Assembly (NCBI RefSeq): GCF_002005145.1
Contig: NZ_CP019698.1
Location: 2,170,001 to 2,234,000, forward strand
Origin: Desulforamulus ferrireducens
GTDB taxonomy: Bacteria; Bacillota; Desulfotomaculia; Desulfotomaculales; Desulfotomaculaceae
Reading direction: 5' to 3'
Length of the DNA stretch: 64,000 nucleotides
This document shows positions 8,620 to 60,995 of this stretch, one piece after another. Each line of letters opens with the position of its first letter. Position 1 is the first letter of the stretch. The translations under genes and the position numbers were made by a program. Below the pieces are notes generated by a model, which saw nothing but the letters and a program-made list of their open reading frames with translations, made no database searches and was not told where the DNA came from.

Positions 8620-10502
8620 TTATATTTTAAATTTACTAATTAGTTTCTGCAAATCCTCAGAAGTTTGTTGAAGTTCTGCGGCCGATGCCGAAACCTCCTC
8701 CATGGAAGCGGTCTGCTCCTCTGTGGTTGCTGCCACGTTTTGTACAGCACCGGAAACCTCAGTGGCAGCAGCTGCTACCTCGCGAGCTCTTTCATTTAAT
8801 CTCTCGATTAATTCAATAATCTCAACTAAAGAAGCGCTTACTTTATTAACTACCTGTTGACCCTGATTAACTTTTAGCTGTCCTGCTTGCATAGCTACGG
8901 CAGCCTGTTCGGACTGCTGCTGAATATTGCTGATGATTTTTGTTATTTCCTCTGCCGAGCTGGCGGAGCTTTCCGCCAGTTTCCGCACCTCATCAGCCAC
9001 CACGGCAAAACCTTTTCCCGCTTCCCCGGCACGGGCGGCTTCAATGGCTGCATTTAAAGCCAAGAGATTGGTCTGACCCGCAATTCCATTAATGGTTTCC
9101 ACAAATTTGCCAATCTCAGAAATAGCGTGATTTAGGGCCTCAATAGTTTTGGCAACCTCGTTACTAGATTGTTCAATTTCCTTGATGGTGCTAACAACAT
9201 GATTAACCTGATTTTTTTCCTGCTCCGCCTGGTTGCTAACTTTGTCCAGGTTCTCCGAAACATCTTTGACATTCTCCACAATGTTATCCACGGTGCTGGC
9301 CACCTCTGATACAGTGGAGGCATTGGCAGTAGCTGCCGCAGAGGTTTGCTCAGCCTGAGCAGAGAGTGAACTTACTGTTTCATTAACATTTTCAGTGGCC
9401 ATAACAATATTTCCGATGAGATCCTTTAAATTCTTGCGCATTTCCTCAAAGGATCTAGCTAACTGGCCTACTTCATCGTTGCTGGAAGCAATAATTTCCT
9501 GGTCCAGTTGACCCTCTGCTACCTTACTGGTGGCAGTAACCAACTTGTTGATGGGGGCTAGTATTTTGTTAGCCAATACCAACCCAATTGATATTAATAA
9601 TAAGGAAGATATAATGGCAATTATGCTAAGATTTTTTGTTGTATTTTCAACCTTTGCAAAAACCTCATCCCGGTCAGCTACGTGGATAAAATCCAACCTG
9701 TGGTAGGAATTGTTTGATAGCTATTAATGGATTTAACACCCTCAAAGGTATACTCGCCTTGTCCCTTTTTTGAGGCCACCGCCTGATTTGTCATGCGGGC
9801 AAGCTCTTCTGTGACAGGCCCCTCAACCTTAGTTAGGTTTTTCAGCAATAGATCCTTGTTCGGGTGGGCTATGGTCACCCCTGCCGCATCTGTTAAATAG
9901 GCCCGTCCCTTTTCGCCATATTTCATAGCGATAATCTGTTGGTTAAGCTCCGCTAAATCCAAACGGCTATATAAGACATGGACTAACTGACCATTCCTTT
10001 TGACGGGAACTGCCATCATCACTGCTACATTGCCGCTAACCTTGGAGATCATTGGTGCAGAAATAGCAAAATCCGCACCATTGACAACGGCCTTAAAATA
10101 ATCCCTCTCGCTCAAATCCACAGGTGCATCATCGCTGTTGACGGCCCAACCATCCAGTCCGATTAAGCCCAGGGATTCAAACCAATTGCCTGACAAGCTA
10201 GTTTGGTGAGCTAATTCCATTTTTAGGTAATCCATGGCCGCCTGTTTATCATCACCTTGTACCACTTCTACATTAGCAAAGGTATGTAAGCTATTGATAT
10301 GATTCTGTATACTTTGCTCCAACATATTGATGTTACTGGTTAATGATTGCTGTAGAGTTAGATTTAGTTGTTCCGTTAAATCCTGTTGATAATTTCTTAG
10401 GGCATACACATTGGTAATAACCAGCAAACCTACGGCCAACAATAAAATGCCTAAGATTTTATAACGAACGCTGAAAAAGTTCTTCTTATCTTTATCAGAC
10501 AT
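8620..10502 (-). pseudogene. Methyl-accepting chemotaxis protein, frameshifted
   Basis: One chemoreceptor gene lies in two frames. The first part (10502 to about 9690) gives a signal/TM anchor (ILGILLLAVGLLVITNVYAL) and a dCache-like sensor (DGWAVNSDDAPVDLSERDYF, AYLTDAAGVTIAHP, ending [10 protein letters not shown] then stop). The second part (from about 9690 to 8620) resumes in another frame at [13 protein letters not shown] with TM, HAMP and the MCP signalling hairpin ([34 protein letters not shown] is the conserved tip region). The join falls near 9682-9690 where one base is missing relative to an open frame. Spliced, it would be about 625 residues, normal for the family. RBS GGGAGGAG precedes ATG 10502. 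Its c-di-GMP riboswitch is displaced by an IS. Either a decayed gene or a sequencing error. Confidence 0.85.
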
Positions 10503-10555: not shown

Positions 10556-10579
10556 AGCAGAGTTTGCCAGAACTCTGCT
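10556..10579. repeat. 24-bp direct repeat flanking the IS, downstream copy of a split terminator
   Basis: Identical in sequence and orientation to 12187-12210. It contains the self-complementary arms AGCAGAGTT and AACTCTGCT around TGCCAG. On the minus strand the hairpin is followed by TTTTTATT, so this copy still looks like an intrinsic terminator for RNA entering the chemoreceptor gene. Confidence 0.85.
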
Positions 10580-12072
10580 CAGACTGAAGACAAACGCCAC
10601 TTTAAGCCGAAAGACTTAAAGTGGCGTTTCCATTTAAATTGAAAAATATTACTAATCGTAAAGAAAATAGAACGTGCCGGTGGCAACATTCCTAATCTTT
10701 TCTTCCACATCGCTATTTTCTTTAAATTCATGCATGCAAAAAGAAGCGTCAGGTAGTTTTGCACTTTCCTCAAGCCTCGGTAGTGAGTGTACCTCATGCC
10801 ATGTTTCTCTTTGGCATCGGCAAATACTCGCTCTATGGTTTCACTCCGCTTTTTGTATAAGTCCTTTCCCTGCTTAGTATACCGTAGATGCTCGGCAATT
10901 TCTCGATATGGTTCCCAAATATGCCTGGTTACAACCTTTGTGTAATTCTTGCTTTGGGTACATTCCATTCTCTTTGGGCAGTTAATGCATATTTTGGGAT
11001 CACTTTTGTATTCCCGATATCCTTCTCGGTTAGTTGTACTATACTTTAAGATTTGATCCTGAGGGCAAATATAGCAATCGTAATATTCATCGTAAACATA
11101 CTCGGATTTTTTAAAGTAGCCCTTTTTAGTCATGGGTCTCTTGTAGGGCATAATAGGAAGTTTTCCTGCTTTGATGATCTCTCTACAAACACCTGGGGTC
11201 TTGTAACCAGCATCAACCACAACTGCTTGGATTTCCGGAAATTGTTTGTTTACTTTTCCAAATATATCGGTGAATACTTGACTATCATGGATATTTCCAG
11301 GGGCAGTTTCTACTCCAAGAATAAAGTTGTTTTTATCACAGGCTACTGAAGCCATATAGGCAAAACATCGCTCTTTTTCACCCTTGTGGAACATTCCACA
11401 TTCAGGATCTGTTTTACTCACCGTAACTTCTCTGGTCTCAGTCGGGGTAGAAGACGCATTGCCGTCTCCTTTGTTATCGTCGTCATCATCATCTCTAAAG
11501 GGTTTCTTCCCGTGCTCTTCACGATCAGCATTTATCTCTACAAATAGATTACGTTTATATTTATGTACTCGGTGCTTAACCATTTTTTTAACGTGCTTAT
11601 TCTTATTAGCACTGGCCTTTACGTGGGTTGCATCGATAAATACGGCATCTGTTTTGACAAAACCACATTGAATAGCTTCCATCAGTACCTTTTCAAAGAC
11701 TTTCTCAAACAAATCACTTTTCTTAAACCGTCTTTCATAGTTTTTTCCAAAGGTTGAAAAGTGGGGTATTTTTTCACCCAGACTATAGCCAAGAAACCAA
11801 CGGTAGGCAATGTTGACTTCTACCTCTTGAATGGTTTGACGCATAGACCTAATTCCATACAAAGCTTGTAACATGATCAATTTAATCAGTACTACTGGAT
11901 CAATGCTAGGCCTTCCGGTATTGTCGCTGTATAATTCTTTGACTTCATCATAAATAAAGTTAAAATCTATACTAGCTTCTACCGCACGAAGTAAGTGATT
12001 ATCAGGAACCAATGTATCAATACTAACGAATTCAACCTGATTAATGATAGTCCGGTCTTTTTTTCTCAGCAC
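10579..12072 (-). CDS. IS1182-family transposase
   Basis: DDE transposase of about 497 residues. The IS1182-type N-terminal domain reads LVPDNHLLRAVEASIDFNFIYDEVKELYSDNTGRPSIDPVVLIKL. Catalytic residues are likely Asp in VFIDATHVKA, Asp in AVVVDAGYKTPG and Glu in SETIERVFADAKEKHGMRYTHYRGL. A Cys cluster (CYICPQDQ...CINCPKRMECTQS) is the zinc-like insertion common in the family. The frame opens at 12120, but no RBS is seen there; GTG 12072 (VLRKKDRTIINQ) follows GGGGGCG and is preferred. It appears intact. Confidence 0.9.
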   Translation of the reverse strand: MLRKKDRTIINQVEFVSIDTLVPDNHLLRAVEASIDFNFIYDEVKELYSDNTGRPSIDPVVLIKLIMLQALYGIRSMRQTIQEVEVNIAYRWFLGYSLGEKIPHFSTFGKNYERRFKKSDLFEKVFEKVLMEAIQCGFVKTDAVFIDATHVKASANKNKHVKKMVKHRVHKYKRNLFVEINADREEHGKKPFRDDDDDDNKGDGNASSTPTETREVTVSKTDPECGMFHKGEKERCFAYMASVACDKNNFILGVETAPGNIHDSQVFTDIFGKVNKQFPEIQAVVVDAGYKTPGVCREIIKAGKLPIMPYKRPMTKKGYFKKSEYVYDEYYDCYICPQDQILKYSTTNREGYREYKSDPKICINCPKRMECTQSKNYTKVVTRHIWEPYREIAEHLRYTKQGKDLYKKRSETIERVFADAKEKHGMRYTHYRGLRKVQNYLTLLFACMNLKKIAMWKKRLGMLPPARSIFFTISNIFQFKWKRHFKSFGLKWRLSSV

Positions 12073-12186
12073 TTTATATCGCCCCCACAAACCAACAAAC
12101 TGATATATATATTTTACCATAAATGGTTATGTTTGGGGCATAGTGTAAATAAAAAGAGTATCGACACTGACTTTGTCGACACTCTG

Positions 12187-12221: not shown

Positions 12222-12291
12222 TTCGGCAACCCGGCCATCCGCCAAACTAAGAGCTTTGCGTCCCTACCTTTCGATAGGTTTGCTATTTTCG
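12222..12291 (-). ncRNA. c-di-GMP-I (GEMM) riboswitch, separated from its gene
   Basis: Read on the minus strand it has the GEMM-I core: AGCAAACC, the GAAA tetraloop stem CTATCGAAAGGTAG, GGGACGCAAAGCT, then the second stem ending in GGCCGGGTTGCC. A promoter lies upstream at 12318-12346. With the IS removed, the terminator hairpin (10556-10579) would follow 11 bases after the aptamer, and the chemoreceptor start about 55 bases after the hairpin. It would thus have been a transcriptional switch for a motility gene. Confidence 0.9.
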
Positions 12292-12300
12292 TTTCCTAAA

Positions 12301-20617: not shown

Positions 20618-21700
20618 TCAACCAATGTTTGTTTCTAGAGGTAGCATCTCAGTAAATTTATCAATATCTGGATAGTAATCCACTTCTTGCACGCGGAAAA
20701 TACTTTTGTGTTTGGCCAGCAACCTTTCCAGCTGGTAACCCTCGGCACTGTCTACTACCACCACCCTTTTTAACACCTTGTTTTGGGTGATAGCCTTACG
20801 AAACATCCAATTTGAGCGAAAATCAGTGGGAGGAAAGGAATAGCCAATAACAATAATTTCCGTTGCCTGGGCCAACTTCCCCCGGGCCTGTCGCCATAAA
20901 TCAGGAATAAAGGGTATGGATTGATAGTTTTTCATTAGGGTTGGTGGGATAATAACTCTGCTTAAATGCTTGCAACAGTGTTCTGTGGAGCATTTGATCA
21001 AATTGGCCATACCGCTGATAATTCTGCTATGACCCTTTTCATCGCTATGGTCATAGCTATAAAGCTGTCCACATTGGGGACAAAAGAGCCAGTTTAATGA
21101 GCCATGCAGCTTATAAAGATGTACGTTGGAAGGTTGCCCATTGTCATTTTTATGATGCTTATGGTGGGTGATATCCTGACAGGGAATACCGTAACCATCC
21201 CGGATGCTCCAATTAGCTGTTGCTCCCTTTAGATCCCTCAGGGCATAGTCCATAAGTAACTCGTAATTAAAGGATATAATGGCGTCTCCTGGTTTGAGGG
21301 ATCTGGCAATAGCCCGATGATGGGGACAAGGTGGGCCATAGAGTATTTTGTCAAAGGTTAAGGCCATTAGTAATAAGTACTCTTCATAGGCCCTCAGTAG
21401 CCTGTCTCGACCGTCAACATCCTCTTCAATTTCAATATTCAGGAGGGTTAATACCTCTTCCATATCCAGGTCTGACTGGCCAATGTCTTCCCTCGGGATA
21501 CCCCATAACTTTTCAATAAAGCAAAAGATTTCCTCATATTGTAGCTGCTCGTCCGCAAAATGGCGATCTCTTATTTGATGTATATCAAGGAGTCGCATGG
21601 CTTTTTGGAAAAAATTTTTCGCCACCGGACTGGTTTCCTTTAAATAAGAACCTTTATAGGATGCTGCTGCGCCTGCTCCTAGAACATATACCTTGGACAC
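20618..21700 (-). CDS. SIR2-like domain protein with zinc ribbon
   Basis: 360 residues. The opening VYVLGAGAAASYKGS is a Rossmann-type GAGAS signature of SIR2-like proteins. GDAIISFNYELLMDYAL matches the S/T-x-N-Y-D motif region, LYKLHGSLNW is the H-G-S motif, CPQCGQ...CSTEHCC is the zinc ribbon, and EIIVIGYSFPPTDF is the G-Y-S-x-P motif. Such SIR2_2-type proteins include NAD-degrading antiphage effectors as well as uncharacterised ones; the sequence alone does not tell which. No partner gene is adjacent: upstream is a small membrane protein gene. ATG 21700 is preceded by GGGAGGGAG. Confidence 0.8.
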   Translation of the reverse strand: MSKVYVLGAGAAASYKGSYLKETSPVAKNFFQKAMRLLDIHQIRDRHFADEQLQYEEIFCFIEKLWGIPREDIGQSDLDMEEVLTLLNIEIEEDVDGRDRLLRAYEEYLLLMALTFDKILYGPPCPHHRAIARSLKPGDAIISFNYELLMDYALRDLKGATANWSIRDGYGIPCQDITHHKHHKNDNGQPSNVHLYKLHGSLNWLFCPQCGQLYSYDHSDEKGHSRIISGMANLIKCSTEHCCKHLSRVIIPPTLMKNYQSIPFIPDLWRQARGKLAQATEIIVIGYSFPPTDFRSNWMFRKAITQNKVLKRVVVVDSAEGYQLERLLAKHKSIFRVQEVDYYPDIDKFTEMLPLETNIG

Positions 21701-22089: not shown

Positions 22090-23352
22090 CTAACTGCTAA
22101 TCTGATAGGGAATAATGCGTTTTTCCCAGGTGCGCAAGGTTATGTGGTTGTTTTTATTTTCGATTACATATTGAGGCAAGATAGGTGTCTTACCGTAGCC
22201 GTTAGGGGCATTAATAATATAGGTGGGAACTGCCAAACCCGAGGTATAGCCCCTCAGTTGCTCCATAATGGCCAGGCCCTCATCCACCCCGGTAATAAAG
22301 TGCCGGGTTCCTTTTACCGACTTAGCGTGGAAAATATAGTAGGGCCTTACCCGAATTTTAAGCAAGCTCTGGTTTAATCGTTTCATAACATCCGGCTGGT
22401 TATTCACATTCTTTAGTAAAACCGCCTGATTGCCCAGGACAACCCCGGCTTTAATCAGCCTGTCACAAGCTTGTTTGGCTTCGGGAGTAACCTCCAAGGG
22501 ATGATTAAACTGGGAGTTAATGTAAATGGGCGGATATTTCTCGAGAACTTCACATAGCTCCGGGGTAATTCTTTGGGGCATGGTTACAGGAGTTCTGGTA
22601 CCAATTCTCTTAATTTCCACGTGGGGAATGTTGTGCAATTCTCCCAGTAACCAATCAAGTTGTTGATCAGATAATAACAGGGCGTCTCCACCGGTAATCA
22701 GTACATCACGGATCTCTTTATTCTCTCGGATATATTGCAATGCAGCTTCCAATACCTTGCGGGGCTTGTGTACATCAACTTCACCAATGTTTCTTCTTCT
22801 CTGACAATGACGACAGTACATAGCACATTGGTTAGTTACGTTAATTATTAAACGATCGGGGTAGCGTCTGGTAATGCCAGGAGCTGGCGAGGTATATTCT
22901 TCACCCATGGGATCTTCTACACCGTAGCGATCCTTTACTTCTTCTATGCTAGGAATTGCCTGCAGCCAGATGGCTCCTCCCTTACCACCTACCATGGCCA
23001 GTGCCAGATAGTAGGGAGAAACTGCCCAACGGTATTGTTTCCCTACCTTTTCTACCGCATCCCTTTCTTCGGGTGTGAGATCTATGATATCACCCAATAC
23101 CTCTACATCACGAATGCGATTAGCCATTTGCCAATGCCAATTATTCCATTGTTCCTCACTGGCATTAAAGTACTTTAACAGCTTGCCTTTGGCCAAGTTG
23201 TAGGCCTCTTGGATTTCAAATCCATCCGGGATATTCTGTTTGTTTTGCAAATAATCCTCAATATGTGCCTTAAGTTCTTTAGCTCTTTTTAAGGCAATTT
23301 TTCTTTTGTCCTTTGCTACAACTTCTTGATCCTGCTTCCAAATTACTGACAA
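22090..23352 (-). CDS. kamA: Lysine 2,3-aminomutase family radical SAM enzyme
   Basis: 420-residue KamA-type PLP/radical SAM protein. The [4Fe-4S] motif is CAMYCRHCQRR, followed by DVLITGGDALLL, KRIGTRTPVTMPQRI and the PLP-lysine region PNGYGKTP near the C-terminus. It should convert L-lysine to beta-lysine (or a close relative). TTG 23352 with GGGAGGG upstream is the start. The transcript starts with a c-di-AMP riboswitch, and a BusR-like c-di-AMP-responsive regulator is encoded next door. This points to beta-lysine made as a compatible solute, but no beta-lysine acetyltransferase (ablB) is adjacent. Glutamate 2,3-aminomutase is an alternative reading. Confidence 0.85.
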   Translation of the reverse strand: MSVIWKQDQEVVAKDKRKIALKRAKELKAHIEDYLQNKQNIPDGFEIQEAYNLAKGKLLKYFNASEEQWNNWHWQMANRIRDVEVLGDIIDLTPEERDAVEKVGKQYRWAVSPYYLALAMVGGKGGAIWLQAIPSIEEVKDRYGVEDPMGEEYTSPAPGITRRYPDRLIINVTNQCAMYCRHCQRRRNIGEVDVHKPRKVLEAALQYIRENKEIRDVLITGGDALLLSDQQLDWLLGELHNIPHVEIKRIGTRTPVTMPQRITPELCEVLEKYPPIYINSQFNHPLEVTPEAKQACDRLIKAGVVLGNQAVLLKNVNNQPDVMKRLNQSLLKIRVRPYYIFHAKSVKGTRHFITGVDEGLAIMEQLRGYTSGLAVPTYIINAPNGYGKTPILPQYVIENKNNHITLRTWEKRIIPYQISS

Positions 23353-23371
23353 TAATATCCCTCCCTTTCCT

Positions 23372-23527
23372 TTTAGCCTACGAAGTTAGCTGACGGGTTC
23401 GGGTCGAAAGGAATAAACCCTACCCACAAAATGCAGGATTCACCCCAAAAAAAGTCGGGTCCTCCGTTCCTATTGCTAGGATTTGGCTAATTTTTACAGA
23501 CAACATGTTTGTCTTGTTAGGTTGTCA
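23372..23527 (-). ncRNA. c-di-AMP (ydaO/yuaA) riboswitch leader of kamA
   Basis: On the minus strand the conserved ydaO blocks occur in order: CGGAGGACCCG, GGGGTGAATCC, GGGTAGGG, then CGACCCGAACCCGTCAGCTA and ACTTCGTAGGCTAA. Closing stem P1 pairs TTAGCC (about 23484-23489) with GGCTAA (about 23374-23379). No terminator follows. The 3' P1 strand lies about 10 bases before the GGGAGGG ribosome binding site, so control of translation or of an unseen alternative fold is possible. In the known class, c-di-AMP binding turns expression off. Confidence 0.9.
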
Positions 23528-23534
23528 CAACTTC

Positions 23535-23564
23535 ATTATATCACGGAGGTTGCCTGTGTATCAA
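23535..23564 (-). promoter_or_regulatory. Promoter of the c-di-AMP riboswitch-kamA transcript
   Basis: TTGATA and TATAAT with an 18-base spacer on the minus strand; start of transcription expected near 23528. Confidence 0.7.
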
Positions 23565-23572
23565 TAAAAAAT

Positions 23573-23593
23573 GGTGCCTACCATGGGGGCACC
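23573..23593 (-). terminator. Terminator of the BusR-like gene
   Basis: GGTGCC/GGCACC stem followed on the minus strand by ATTTTTTATT. Confidence 0.65.
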
Positions 23594-23598
23594 TTATA

Positions 23599-24213
23599 TT
23601 ATACTCTTACCAATCCCTCCCGGGCTTCCGGTTCAAGTCGTCCGTATATGGTAAAGATATCACCATTTTCTATAATGATATCCTCAGTTAAATCTGTTAT
23701 ATCGTCCATACCTTTGCGTTGGATAGCCAGTATTTTACCCTTGCAAATTTTAGTTTTGGCCAGCGGTTGTCCCACCAAAGGGGAATCCGGCAGCACCTTC
23801 CACTCTTCTATTTTAGTTAGTTTATTTTCTAAGTGAAGTGTGTGCTCCATTAATTCCTCCAGGAGCTTATCTATTTCGTGGTTTAAACGATCTCTTTCTT
23901 TAATCAGATCATGTAGTTGTTCATGCAGACCGGCCAAAACCCGGCGCTGATCAAAATCATCTAAATATTTTCTGGCCGACTCGGTGGATTTAACAACCAC
24001 ACCTACACCAGCGGTTACTTCCACAATACCTACTTCTTGAAGTAAGGTTAACGCCCGGCGAATGGTTTCTGGGGAAACACTATATTTACCTGCCAGGGTA
24101 GAGCGACCAAAGATCTTTTGACCTTCCTGGTACTCCCCGCGAACTATGTGTTCGGCCAAGTCCGCGGCGATGGTAATATACCGTGCCATATGAATATCAT
24201 TATTCACCAACAT
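23599..24213 (-). CDS. GntR-type regulator with C-terminal TrkA_C domain, BusR-like
   Basis: About 204 residues: winged helix of the GntR kind (GQKIFGRSTLAGKYSVSPETIRRALTLLQEVGIVEV, about residues 25-75), coiled coil (LHEQLHDLIKERDRLNHEIDKLLEELMEHT, about 90-130) and a C-terminal RCK_C/TrkA_C domain (DSPLVGQPLAKTKICKGKILAIQRKG...IIENGDIFTIYG). This is the architecture of BusR, the c-di-AMP-dependent repressor of osmolyte uptake in lactococci and streptococci. ATG 24213 with GGAGGG is the start. It lies upstream of, and in line with, the c-di-AMP riboswitch-kamA unit, but a terminator separates them. DNA targets are not visible. Confidence 0.82.
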   Translation of the reverse strand: MLVNNDIHMARYITIAADLAEHIVRGEYQEGQKIFGRSTLAGKYSVSPETIRRALTLLQEVGIVEVTAGVGVVVKSTESARKYLDDFDQRRVLAGLHEQLHDLIKERDRLNHEIDKLLEELMEHTLHLENKLTKIEEWKVLPDSPLVGQPLAKTKICKGKILAIQRKGMDDITDLTEDIIIENGDIFTIYGRLEPEAREGLVRV

Positions 24214-24292
24214 TAAACCCTCCAAGTATACTCTTTAAAGTTAAATTATACCCCCGAAGCACAGATAAGTGAAGAGTTTATTTTCTGCCAAA

Positions 24293-56328: not shown

Positions 56329-56357
56329 TATAGTAGGACCTTTTTCCTAAAAGGTTT

Positions 56358-56440
56358 GAAAAAGGCAAACCTATCGAAAGGTAGGGGCGCAAAACTATGG
56401 GTCTAAATCGTTTTTACGATATGATCGCCAGGTTGCCAAA
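56358..56440 (+). ncRNA. c-di-GMP-I (GEMM) riboswitch upstream of a Cys-rich peptide gene
   Basis: Core GGCAAACC, tetraloop stem CTATCGAAAGGTAG, GGGGCGCAAAACT, second stem with an apical TTTTT loop, then ATCGCCAGGTTGCC. The first stem is identical to that of the riboswitch at 12222-12291. A short hairpin ACAGGGT/ACCCTGT (56444-56461) follows without a T-run, so the expression platform may act on the AAAGGTGG ribosome binding site rather than on transcription. Confidence 0.88.
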
Positions 56441-59485: not shown

Positions 59486-59590
59486 GGGGAACCAGTTATC
59501 CATATCCCCCTAATCCATTCCTGGGCGCTTTTTATATATGTTAGCATACCCGTAGTGCTGGCAACAGGTGACGTAGGATTTGACGCTTAC

Positions 59591-59598
59591 TGATTTTG
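59591..59598. repeat. IS66 target-site duplication, right
   Basis: TGATTTTG, identical to 57142-57149. Confidence 0.9.
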
Positions 59599-60995
59599 GG
59601 TTCTTTGCCCCACGTAAATGAGAATCCTAGAAATTTCCTCTTCCACGGCCTGTCTACTGCACTCTTTTGCATATTGACTTTAAGTTTTAGTCTCTCTTCT
59701 ACAAACCTTTTGACACTCGCCATGACTCTTTCCCCGGCTCTTCGGCTCTTCACGTAAATGTTGCAGTCATCTGCATATCTGACGAATCTGTGTCCCCGTT
59801 TCCAGAGCTCCCAGTCTAGGTCATTCAGCATGATGTTGGCTAAGAGTGGACTTAACGGGCCTCCTTGGGGGGTTCCTTCTCCGGTTGCTATGCAGCATCC
59901 GTTTACCATTACCCCGGCTTGGAGGTATCTCCGAATGAGCAGTAACACCCTTTTGTCTTGGATTCTTCTGGCCACCTTTGACATAAGTATGTCGTGGTTG
60001 ACCTTGTCGAAGAATTTCTCCAAGTCCATGTCCACTACCCACCGGTATCCTTCCTTGATGTATTCTCTTGCCAGTTCTACTGCCGAATGTGCTCTTTTGT
60101 GGGGCCGAAAGCCGAAGCTAAATGGGACAAAGGTTGGTTCAAAGATGTCGTTCATTTTCTGTAGAAGTGCCTGTTGGATTAGGCGGTCTATTACCGTTGG
60201 TATTCCCAACAACCTTGTTCCTCCGTCTGGTTTCGGGATTTCGACTCGACGTACTGGTTTTGGTTGGTAGGTTCCTTTTAGGAGTTGTTCTCTAATTACG
60301 GGCCACTGGTCTTTGAGGAATGGACGAAGGGATTCTATCGTCATTCCATCTATTCCAGCTGCTCCTTTGTTAGTCTCCACCCGGTATAGCGCATATAGCA
60401 TATTGTACCTTGCTACCACCCGTTCCATCAGGTTGTTACAACTTTCTTCGCGGGTCGTTTCTTTGGTTCGTGCCGGTGATAAACTCGGCCCTCCTCCAGT
60501 CCCCTGCGTATTCACCGCTTCCTCCTGAAGGTAGTTCCCTTTTGGGATTTTCTGCTGTCTTTGCTTATCTCTCGAATTCCCCATGAACTTCCCTCACAAT
60601 CATGTTCAGCCCTTCCCTGCTCAGACGTCTCTTCGCAGGTACTATGGCCTCTGCTGACTCCTGCCGATTCAGCCATGCATCTCTACATGGGTTACCAATT
60701 TAATTGGCGTTTCCGGCAGGCCTCCCCGGGTAAGAACGTTATCTTTCCCTCCATCTACCCGCTCCATTTACTCTCGACAGCCTTTGGTAGCAAGGACTTT
60801 ATCTTGGCATGCAGATTCATCCAACTGTCGCTAGCCTCACCTGGAGTTCGTGGTCCTCGGGCCAGAGGTTTGCCGCCGACTTCCTTCAGATTCTACCTCG
60901 CGATAGACACCCTTGTCTTAAGCTATGGCTACTGCTACCTTCGCCATTCGGGACTTTCACCCTATAGATAACGCCCATGCCGGGCACACATGCTA

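Follow-up and report, generated by a model that had tools for sequence, protein, structure and literature searches.

A c-di-AMP riboswitch and BusR-type operators stacked ahead of a predicted glutamate 2,3-aminomutase gene in Desulforamulus ferrireducens

The locus described here lies in a stretch of 64,000 nucleotides of the Desulforamulus ferrireducens genome, hereafter the window, and carries a gene for glutamate 2,3-aminomutase (eam) that is probably repressed twice, at transcription by a BusR-type protein and at translation by its own c-di-AMP-bound leader RNA. In the mechanism that we propose from computational evidence, the enzyme would convert L-glutamate to the compatible solute beta-glutamate, and the BusR-like repressor would bind two abutting operators over the -10 box and the transcript start and thereby block initiation. 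The mRNA would start with a c-di-AMP aptamer, and as the Shine-Dalgarno sequence is at the same time the 3' strand of its pseudoknot, the ligand-bound RNA could stop translation without a terminator or any other expression platform. Osmotic stress, by lowering c-di-AMP and/or raising ionic strength, would open both locks and beta-glutamate would be made.

Read along the minus strand, the locus consists of busR, promoter, operators, aptamer and aminomutase gene, in that order. The order of busR, aptamer and aminomutase is as in the initial annotation, which placed the locus correctly, at 23372-24213, with an extent slightly too short at both ends. The features are, in window coordinates:

22090-23352, minus strand: eam, glutamate 2,3-aminomutase, 420 aa, TTG start at 23352, matching TIGR04368.
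23360-23498, minus strand: c-di-AMP (ydaO/yuaA) riboswitch aptamer, 103.7 bits to RF00379 and 121.0 bits to our own model R1, a model of which the window sequence is itself a part.
23360-23369, minus strand: GAAAGGGAGG, Shine-Dalgarno sequence and 3' strand of the aptamer loop-tail pseudoknot, from its sequence, start-codon spacing and loop-tail covariation.
23406-23411, minus strand: loop strand CCTTTC, which can pair with the tail GAAAGG, from the aptamer alignment and covariation.
23499-23526, minus strand: BusR-type operator 1, GACAAC-N16-GTTGTC (GAC-N22-GTC), between the promoter (-35 box) and the aptamer.
23527-23553, minus strand: BusR-type operator 2, GCAACCTCCGTGATATAATGAAGTTGT, covering the -10 box and abutting operator 1.
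23535-23564, minus strand: promoter-like TTGATA-N18-TATAAT ahead of eam, 11 of 12 consensus positions.
23566-23593, minus strand: hairpin and T-run, likely the busR terminator, read from the sequence; the terminator scan listed the plus-strand form only.
23599-24225, minus strand: busR-like gene, 208 aa, with winged helix, long coiled coil and a divergent RCK_C/TrkA_C domain.

The operator region is 55 bp long (23553-23499) and overlaps the promoter-like element. Since the hairpin and T-run likely end busR, eam would have its own transcription unit.

The enzyme had been taken for a lysine 2,3-aminomutase that makes beta-lysine as an osmoprotectant, and neither the enzyme name nor the product was borne out. 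Scored against NCBIfam, it exceeded the cut-off of the glutamate 2,3-aminomutase family TIGR04368 (717.8 bits, cut-off 650) and fell short of that of the lysine 2,3-aminomutase AblA, TIGR03820 (445.2 bits, cut-off 525.4). The radical SAM CxxxCxxC motif is formed by C176, C180 and C183. In an alignment to the lysine 2,3-aminomutase 2a5h, the Asp residues of 'YQCD' and 'VDAP', which we take to bind the far amino group of the substrate and so to set the substrate, are replaced by Lys344 and Asn381, and Lys/Asn occupied both columns in 163 of the 164 fetched eam loci, the window locus included. The window genome contained a single TIGR04368 match, and a search for the partner acetyltransferase AblB elsewhere in the genome gave none over the cut-off (TIGR03827, best 26.4 bits against 205.1), so that beta-lysine is not a likely product; given also the family cut-offs and the two substrate columns, it was rejected. 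By family cut-off and substrate columns the enzyme is a glutamate 2,3-aminomutase, and its product is most likely beta-glutamate, an osmolyte. Genome G034 encodes a second aminomutase of the KamA family downstream of its eam (L074:5333-6424), with 43% identity to the window eam.

Beta-glutamate is a known compatible solute, chiefly of methanogens and of a few bacteria (PMC1224877, in the part of this review available). In Moorella thermoacetica, blue light strongly induces glutamate 2,3-aminomutase, which the authors read as osmoprotective (PMC7835215, available in part). An enzyme working in glutamate catabolism or another pathway, with beta-glutamate not an osmolyte in this organism, is nevertheless conceivable, since early NMR work on methanogens spoke against an aminomutase route to beta-glutamate (cited in the same review, PMC1224877). 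We consider such a role unlikely, given that most eam genes of the class carry a c-di-AMP riboswitch, that a common operator motif precedes ablA genes and betaine importers (below), and that Na+ riboswitches on eam are in print, with beta-glutamate counted among the osmoprotectants in the accessible text of PMC9337991.

The leader RNA is a c-di-AMP (ydaO/yuaA) riboswitch by its Rfam score, as the initial annotation had proposed, and is predicted to bind the ligand. The match to RF00379 at 23360-23498 on the minus strand covered the full model (1-134) at 103.7 bits, against a gathering score of 38 (E 1.4e-23). Four RF00379 copies were found in the window genome, the other three preceding genes for a LysM-NlpC/P60-type protein, a LysM cell-wall hydrolase and a CAP-domain protein (domains read from translations), and two diadenylate cyclase (DAC) matches exceeded the cut-off. 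There was no Na+ riboswitch at the eam locus among the 12 gathering-level Rfam matches in the window.

The pairing of this aptamer with an aminomutase gene had been called unusual, and a survey showed it to be common. For this analysis, we used 84 eam loci from the 113 genomes of the class that were searched (78 exceeding the TIGR04368 cut-off and 6 below) and 80 loci from a set of named genomes, about ten of which duplicate class loci, as judged from matching contigs and titles; three weaker or partial eam matches, in G083, G071 and G052, lie outside the fetched set. Scanning the eam strand within 700 nt before the gene with a covariance model built from 20 eam aptamers, we found an aptamer ahead of eam at 62 of the 84 class loci and 39 of the 80 named loci, or at 59/78 and 38/79, respectively, when restricted to loci with at least 400 nt upstream. 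The literature also has a gene named lysine-2,3-aminomutase that carries Na+ and c-di-AMP riboswitches in tandem (PMC9337991, available in part). The description as unusual was thus discarded, most eam genes of the class having the aptamer.

Several other elements were observed in the window. Of two c-di-GMP-I riboswitches, the one at 12222-12294 (minus strand) has a transposase-like ORF (10579-12120) after it on the same strand and ahead of a sensor-like ORF (9678-10502), and the one at 56354-56440 (plus strand) is followed by an IS66-like cluster from 57265 (ORFs read from translations), so that mobile elements may have inserted between riboswitch and target. A group II intron, identified by two Rfam matches, is located at 59541-60907 on the minus strand together with a reverse-transcriptase-like ORF. 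A SIR2-like protein (Pfam SIR2_2; weak PADLOC match to Aga_SIR2, E 1.3e-11) is encoded near tRNA genes at 20618-21700, also on the minus strand, and is possibly a defence gene.

The leaders of the window genus are short at their 3' ends. With start codons chosen by script, the distance from the end of the aptamer to the start codon was 4-8 nt at nine loci, eight of them from the window genus (where it is 5-8 nt) and one from G069, a genome of another family whose EAM groups beside the window genus (support 90), as against 20-333 nt at the other 92. In the window genus the aptamer has no terminator. An alignment of 87 aptamers, 85 of which belong to eam genes, shows the loop and the 3' tail to be complementary, with covarying pairs such as GGCUUUC/GAAAGCC, CUAUC/GAUAG and UGUUUC/GAAACA. 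Among the 81 distinct loop-tail pairs, the mean length of the longest Watson-Crick run was 5.07, compared with 4.29 for shuffled tails (300 shuffles, sd 0.10, largest 4.54; relatedness among the sequences is ignored in this comparison). In the window genus, GAAAGGGAGG or a near copy of it forms the tail strand and is itself the Shine-Dalgarno sequence, ending 4-7 nt before the start codon, so that the folded aptamer would pair part of the ribosome site directly, and we infer that a fold hiding this site would be an off-switch when ligand-bound. In its nested minimum-energy fold the leader pairs the Shine-Dalgarno sequence elsewhere, and this fold is no better than those of shuffled sequences (z 0.25), so that the free state is not predicted as cleanly open; the mean unpaired probability of the Shine-Dalgarno sequence was 0.40-0.53 in the free ensembles of nine leaders. 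In view of the z value, nested folding was dropped as uninformative.

The case for the protein turned out stronger than could be seen from gene order and domains, because BusR-type operators are located in the promoter. The published BusR motif is GAC-N22-GTC, with a spacing of 22 bp in four determined sites (PMC8517857), and one of the two BusR footprints at S. agalactiae busAB overlaps -35, -10 and +1 (PMC5919688; both papers available in part). Operator 1 fits this motif exactly, and its extended form GACAAC-N16-GTTGTC at 23499-23526 is the sole exact match in the 3.24 Mb window genome. The pattern GRCAAC-N16-GTTGYC was present at the start of the eam aptamer in eight of nine genus genomes (seven loci and G052) and in G069, and the ninth genus genome, G056, had sites with two mismatches.

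Several searches with looser patterns were set aside. The bare GAC-N22-GTC occurred 3 times in the window against 4.75 expected and was dropped as evidence, and the weight was therefore put on the longer half-sites, the place beside the aptamer and the genes behind a strict motif. Allowing two mismatches in GACAAC-N16-GTTGTC proved too loose for a regulon search in the window genome (78 sites against 155 for a reversed control), and GRCAACN{16,17}GTTGYC gave 25 sites over the nine genus genomes against 21 for its reversed control, so that within the genus the case for the operators rests on their position beside the aptamer.

To extend the comparison beyond the genus, a matrix built from 16 half-sites of the window genus was applied, at a score of at least 8, to non-genus eam promoter regions of at least 200 nt, five loci with less upstream sequence and the eight genus loci lying outside this test. 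Operator-like sites were obtained at 9 of 33 eam promoters in genomes with a full BusR, 5 of 8 with a short BusR and 2 of 30 without BusR. Two wrong-spacing controls gave 1 and 1 of 33, 0 and 0 of 8, and 3 and 3 of 30, respectively, so that the rate in genomes without BusR is about the level of the controls. Operator-like promoters were thus associated with a full or short BusR (14/41 versus 2/30, Fisher 0.0086). In family f9, where BusR and the riboswitch are both present, none of the 7 loci scanned (of 8) had a good eam site (best score 5.3).

In 5 of the 80 named loci busR is divergent from eam (titles Desulfitobacterium for L131, Peptococcaceae for L137, Desulfosporosinus for L144 and L156, and Gracilibacter for L149); these five come from another class. 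Three of them have GRCAAC-N17-GTTGYC at the promoter with 0-1 mismatch, and no site within two mismatches was found at L131 and L149. In relatives, the N17 sites exceed the published BusR spacing by one base. At L144:2944-5215 (Desulfosporosinus sp. HMP52), the operator lies over the -10 region between the divergent genes, and the c-di-AMP riboswitch is 153 nt before the start codon.

We also examined a strict motif, GRCAACYTN{12,13}ARGTTGYC, which gave 28 sites in 23 of the 113 class genomes against 8 for the reversed pattern. The window genome has none, and within the genus it was found once each in two of nine genomes (G052 and G056), neither time at eam; both sites precede a binding-protein gene, and an ablA-like gene follows about 2.4 kb downstream. 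Targets were called by reading the flanking ORFs, with family searches on part of them and the positions of the TIGR04368 search, and by this reading 24 of the 28 sites fall into five groups: 11 lie before ablA-like genes (the one in G064 being fragmentary), 3 before eam, 4 before an amino-acid binding protein beside or in an ablA operon, 1 before a dapB with a c-di-AMP riboswitch motif as well and 5 before betaine importers (ProV, OpuAC or ABC-CBS ATPase). The four sites that did not fit are in G001, G063 and G064 (one of two in each of the latter) and G066. All four ablA-like genes scored against NCBIfam were over the AblA cut-off, and five of the nine f9 sites are at ablA genes. A full or short BusR homologue was present in 21 of the 23 genomes with a strict site, compared with 70 of 113 overall (Fisher 0.0013). 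We infer from these sites that in the relatives the BusR regulon would span both synthesis and uptake of osmolytes.

Two observations were made alongside. A second stack of operator and riboswitch, this one on lysine synthesis, is found at L229:1949-3088 in G096, where a BusR-type operator precedes a c-di-AMP riboswitch and a DapB-like gene. The best OpuAC match of the window genome itself (G000:C1:3141-3948; L234, L235) consists of two neighbouring pieces out of order, one with a stop, so that the glycine-betaine uptake gene may be broken.

These results bear on two other readings of the palindromes. A regulator other than BusR that recognizes a similar half-site might read them: only GAC and GTC are fixed in the published motif, and the G107 site precedes a betaine importer in a genome in which no BusR was found. 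This is improbable in our view, because the spacing in the window is exactly that of BusR, five strict sites precede the classic type of BusR target, the betaine importers, and nearly all site-bearing genomes have a BusR homologue. Alternatively, the riboswitch alone might regulate eam, with the adjacent BusR a chance or ancestral neighbour that has other targets, in keeping with the absence of strict-motif sites at eam in the genus and with the separation of busR from eam in the other families looked at, where it is near ribulose-phosphate epimerase-like, CBS-domain and riboflavin-type ORFs (our reading; these neighbours were dropped as uninformative with regard to function). The site at the aptamer in eight of nine genus genomes, the five divergent busR-eam loci and the predominance of osmolyte genes behind the strict sites argue against this reading, to which we give the least credence. 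The preferred reading thus remains that a BusR-type repressor would act at the eam operators.

The regulator is BusR-like by domain order and fold, as had been suggested from its GntR, coiled coil and TrkA_C segments, and is predicted to bind the eam operators. The product of 23599-24225 scored 44.2 bits for GntR (cut-off 27) and 24.2 bits for TrkA_C, just under the cut-off of 27, in Pfam, and its two best sequence matches among solved structures were 7wjg and 7b5t, the BusR proteins of S. mutans and S. agalactiae. An AlphaFold model (mean pLDDT 81.5, pTM 0.44) searched with Foldseek placed BusR chains at ranks 1-13 (best E 9.5e-13, probability 1.00, TM about 0.4, rmsd 12.8), and VIA against 7b5t_C gave Z 14.9 and rmsd 15.6 over 150 aligned residues. 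We read the low TM and high rmsd as probably reflecting hinged domains set at other angles.

The initial annotation had RNA and protein sensing the same messenger. The aptamer and the BusR fold support this idea, and the part that became doubtful is c-di-AMP sensing by the protein. The pocket of S. agalactiae BusR includes Ala164, Thr165, Ile166 and Pro181 (PMC8517857, available in part; its numbering is taken by us as offset by two from the chain index), and the RCK_C pocket residues were not recovered in the window protein. In 7b5t and 12 full-length relatives of other families the pocket loop reads RTGAT, KTGAT or QTGAT, and in the seven genus proteins aligned (of nine genomes) it is short by two (G057) or three residues, the genus regulators of G051 and G058 and that of G061 (L099) being absent from this alignment. 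The window protein has the three-residue deletion, and DLTED replaces SPGPF, with both Pro of SPGP gone. The shortened loop and the TrkA_C score under the cut-off make activation of this BusR by c-di-AMP doubtful, and the riboswitch may be the sole c-di-AMP sensor at the locus.

Short regulators were found in another family. RCK_C is wholly absent from the six f16 regulators examined. At L106-L111 (G094, G096, G098, G085, G087 and G109) the BusR homologues are about 137-150 aa long, with winged helix and coiled coil and without RCK_C; these genomes have eam with a c-di-AMP riboswitch, and the operator-like eam sites in G094, G096, G098 and G087 are of the N17 type.

It is accordingly possible, although we would not put it at even chances, that RNA alone senses c-di-AMP and that BusR of the genus reports ionic strength or another ligand, so that eam would need low c-di-AMP and a second salt signal. 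The loop deletion throughout the aligned genus proteins and the loss of RCK_C in f16 point this way, as does the presence of the riboswitch wherever the regulator is short (8/8 loci) or of the window genus (8/8). Such a second signal could be ionic strength, to which DNA binding by L. lactis BusR responds (review PMC10243994, available in part). A short loop is, however, no proof of lost binding: the Thr of GAT is replaced by Lys or Arg, which could contact phosphate, and the protein still has RCK_C, which in the predicted model matches RCK domains. Whichever signal the protein reads, the osmolyte under c-di-AMP control that had been proposed for this locus stands as regards osmolyte synthesis and the joint presence of an RNA sensor and a BusR-family protein, and was wrong as regards the substrate.

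The combination of the two regulators varies within the class. Among 81 resolved eam loci, 28 have a riboswitch without BusR, 26 a riboswitch and a full BusR, 8 a riboswitch and a short regulator, 16 a full BusR without a riboswitch and 3 neither; BusR absence was called at E 1e-15, BusR presence is a genome-level count that is by itself no sign of a site at eam, and three further loci were cut off. The counts are clumped by family, all 15 f4 loci being without a riboswitch. A broader reading, which we put forward tentatively, is that a repressor and a riboswitch of one signalling system stand back to back on an osmolyte gene, that the c-di-AMP domain of the repressor decays once the riboswitch carries that sense and a two-signal gate results, and that the pseudoknot strand, as ribosome binding site, replaces the expression platform.

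If the preferred reading is true, the BusR regulon extends from osmolyte uptake to synthesis (eam and ablA) in these anaerobes, the loci form a natural series in which to study the exchange of RNA and protein sensors of one messenger on a single gene, and the window genus has a predicted c-di-AMP riboswitch whose own fold would conceal the ribosome site. A search of the accessible literature found no paper joining BusR with an aminomutase and no study of BusR control of osmolyte synthesis in this group of anaerobes. For dual control by riboswitch, GntR protein and c-di-AMP, no paper described this type of locus in its title or the start of its abstract. A c-di-AMP riboswitch with beta-glutamate or an aminomutase was found only in PMC9337991, as far as the available texts go, and an earlier gene list naming eam is possible. 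What appears to be new is the stacked arrangement of operators and aptamer, the Shine-Dalgarno sequence within the pseudoknot strand and the putative BusR regulon of both synthesis and uptake.

The closest known arrangement is the tandem Na+-I/c-di-AMP riboswitch of Dehalobacter sp. CF on a 'lysine-2,3-aminomutase' gene (PMC9337991, in the part available), which likewise has a c-di-AMP aptamer on a KamA-family osmolyte gene and two stacked inputs. In Dehalobacter, two RNA sensors work through transcription termination, whereas in the window one would be a DNA-bound protein and the RNA lacks a terminator. The BusR-busAB systems of S. agalactiae and L. lactis (PMC8517857, PMC5919688, in the parts available) share with the window the fold and domain order of the regulator, the GAC-N22-GTC spacing, two sites with one over promoter elements, and an osmolyte target. 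They differ in that the window target would be osmolyte synthesis rather than uptake, that a riboswitch follows in the promoter-leader and that the pocket loop of RCK_C is shortened. With the ydaO/yuaA riboswitch (RF00379) the window shares a full aptamer at 103.7 bits, but in the window genus the start codon follows the aptamer after only 5-8 nt, and the Shine-Dalgarno sequence is the pseudoknot strand itself instead of part of a separate expression platform.
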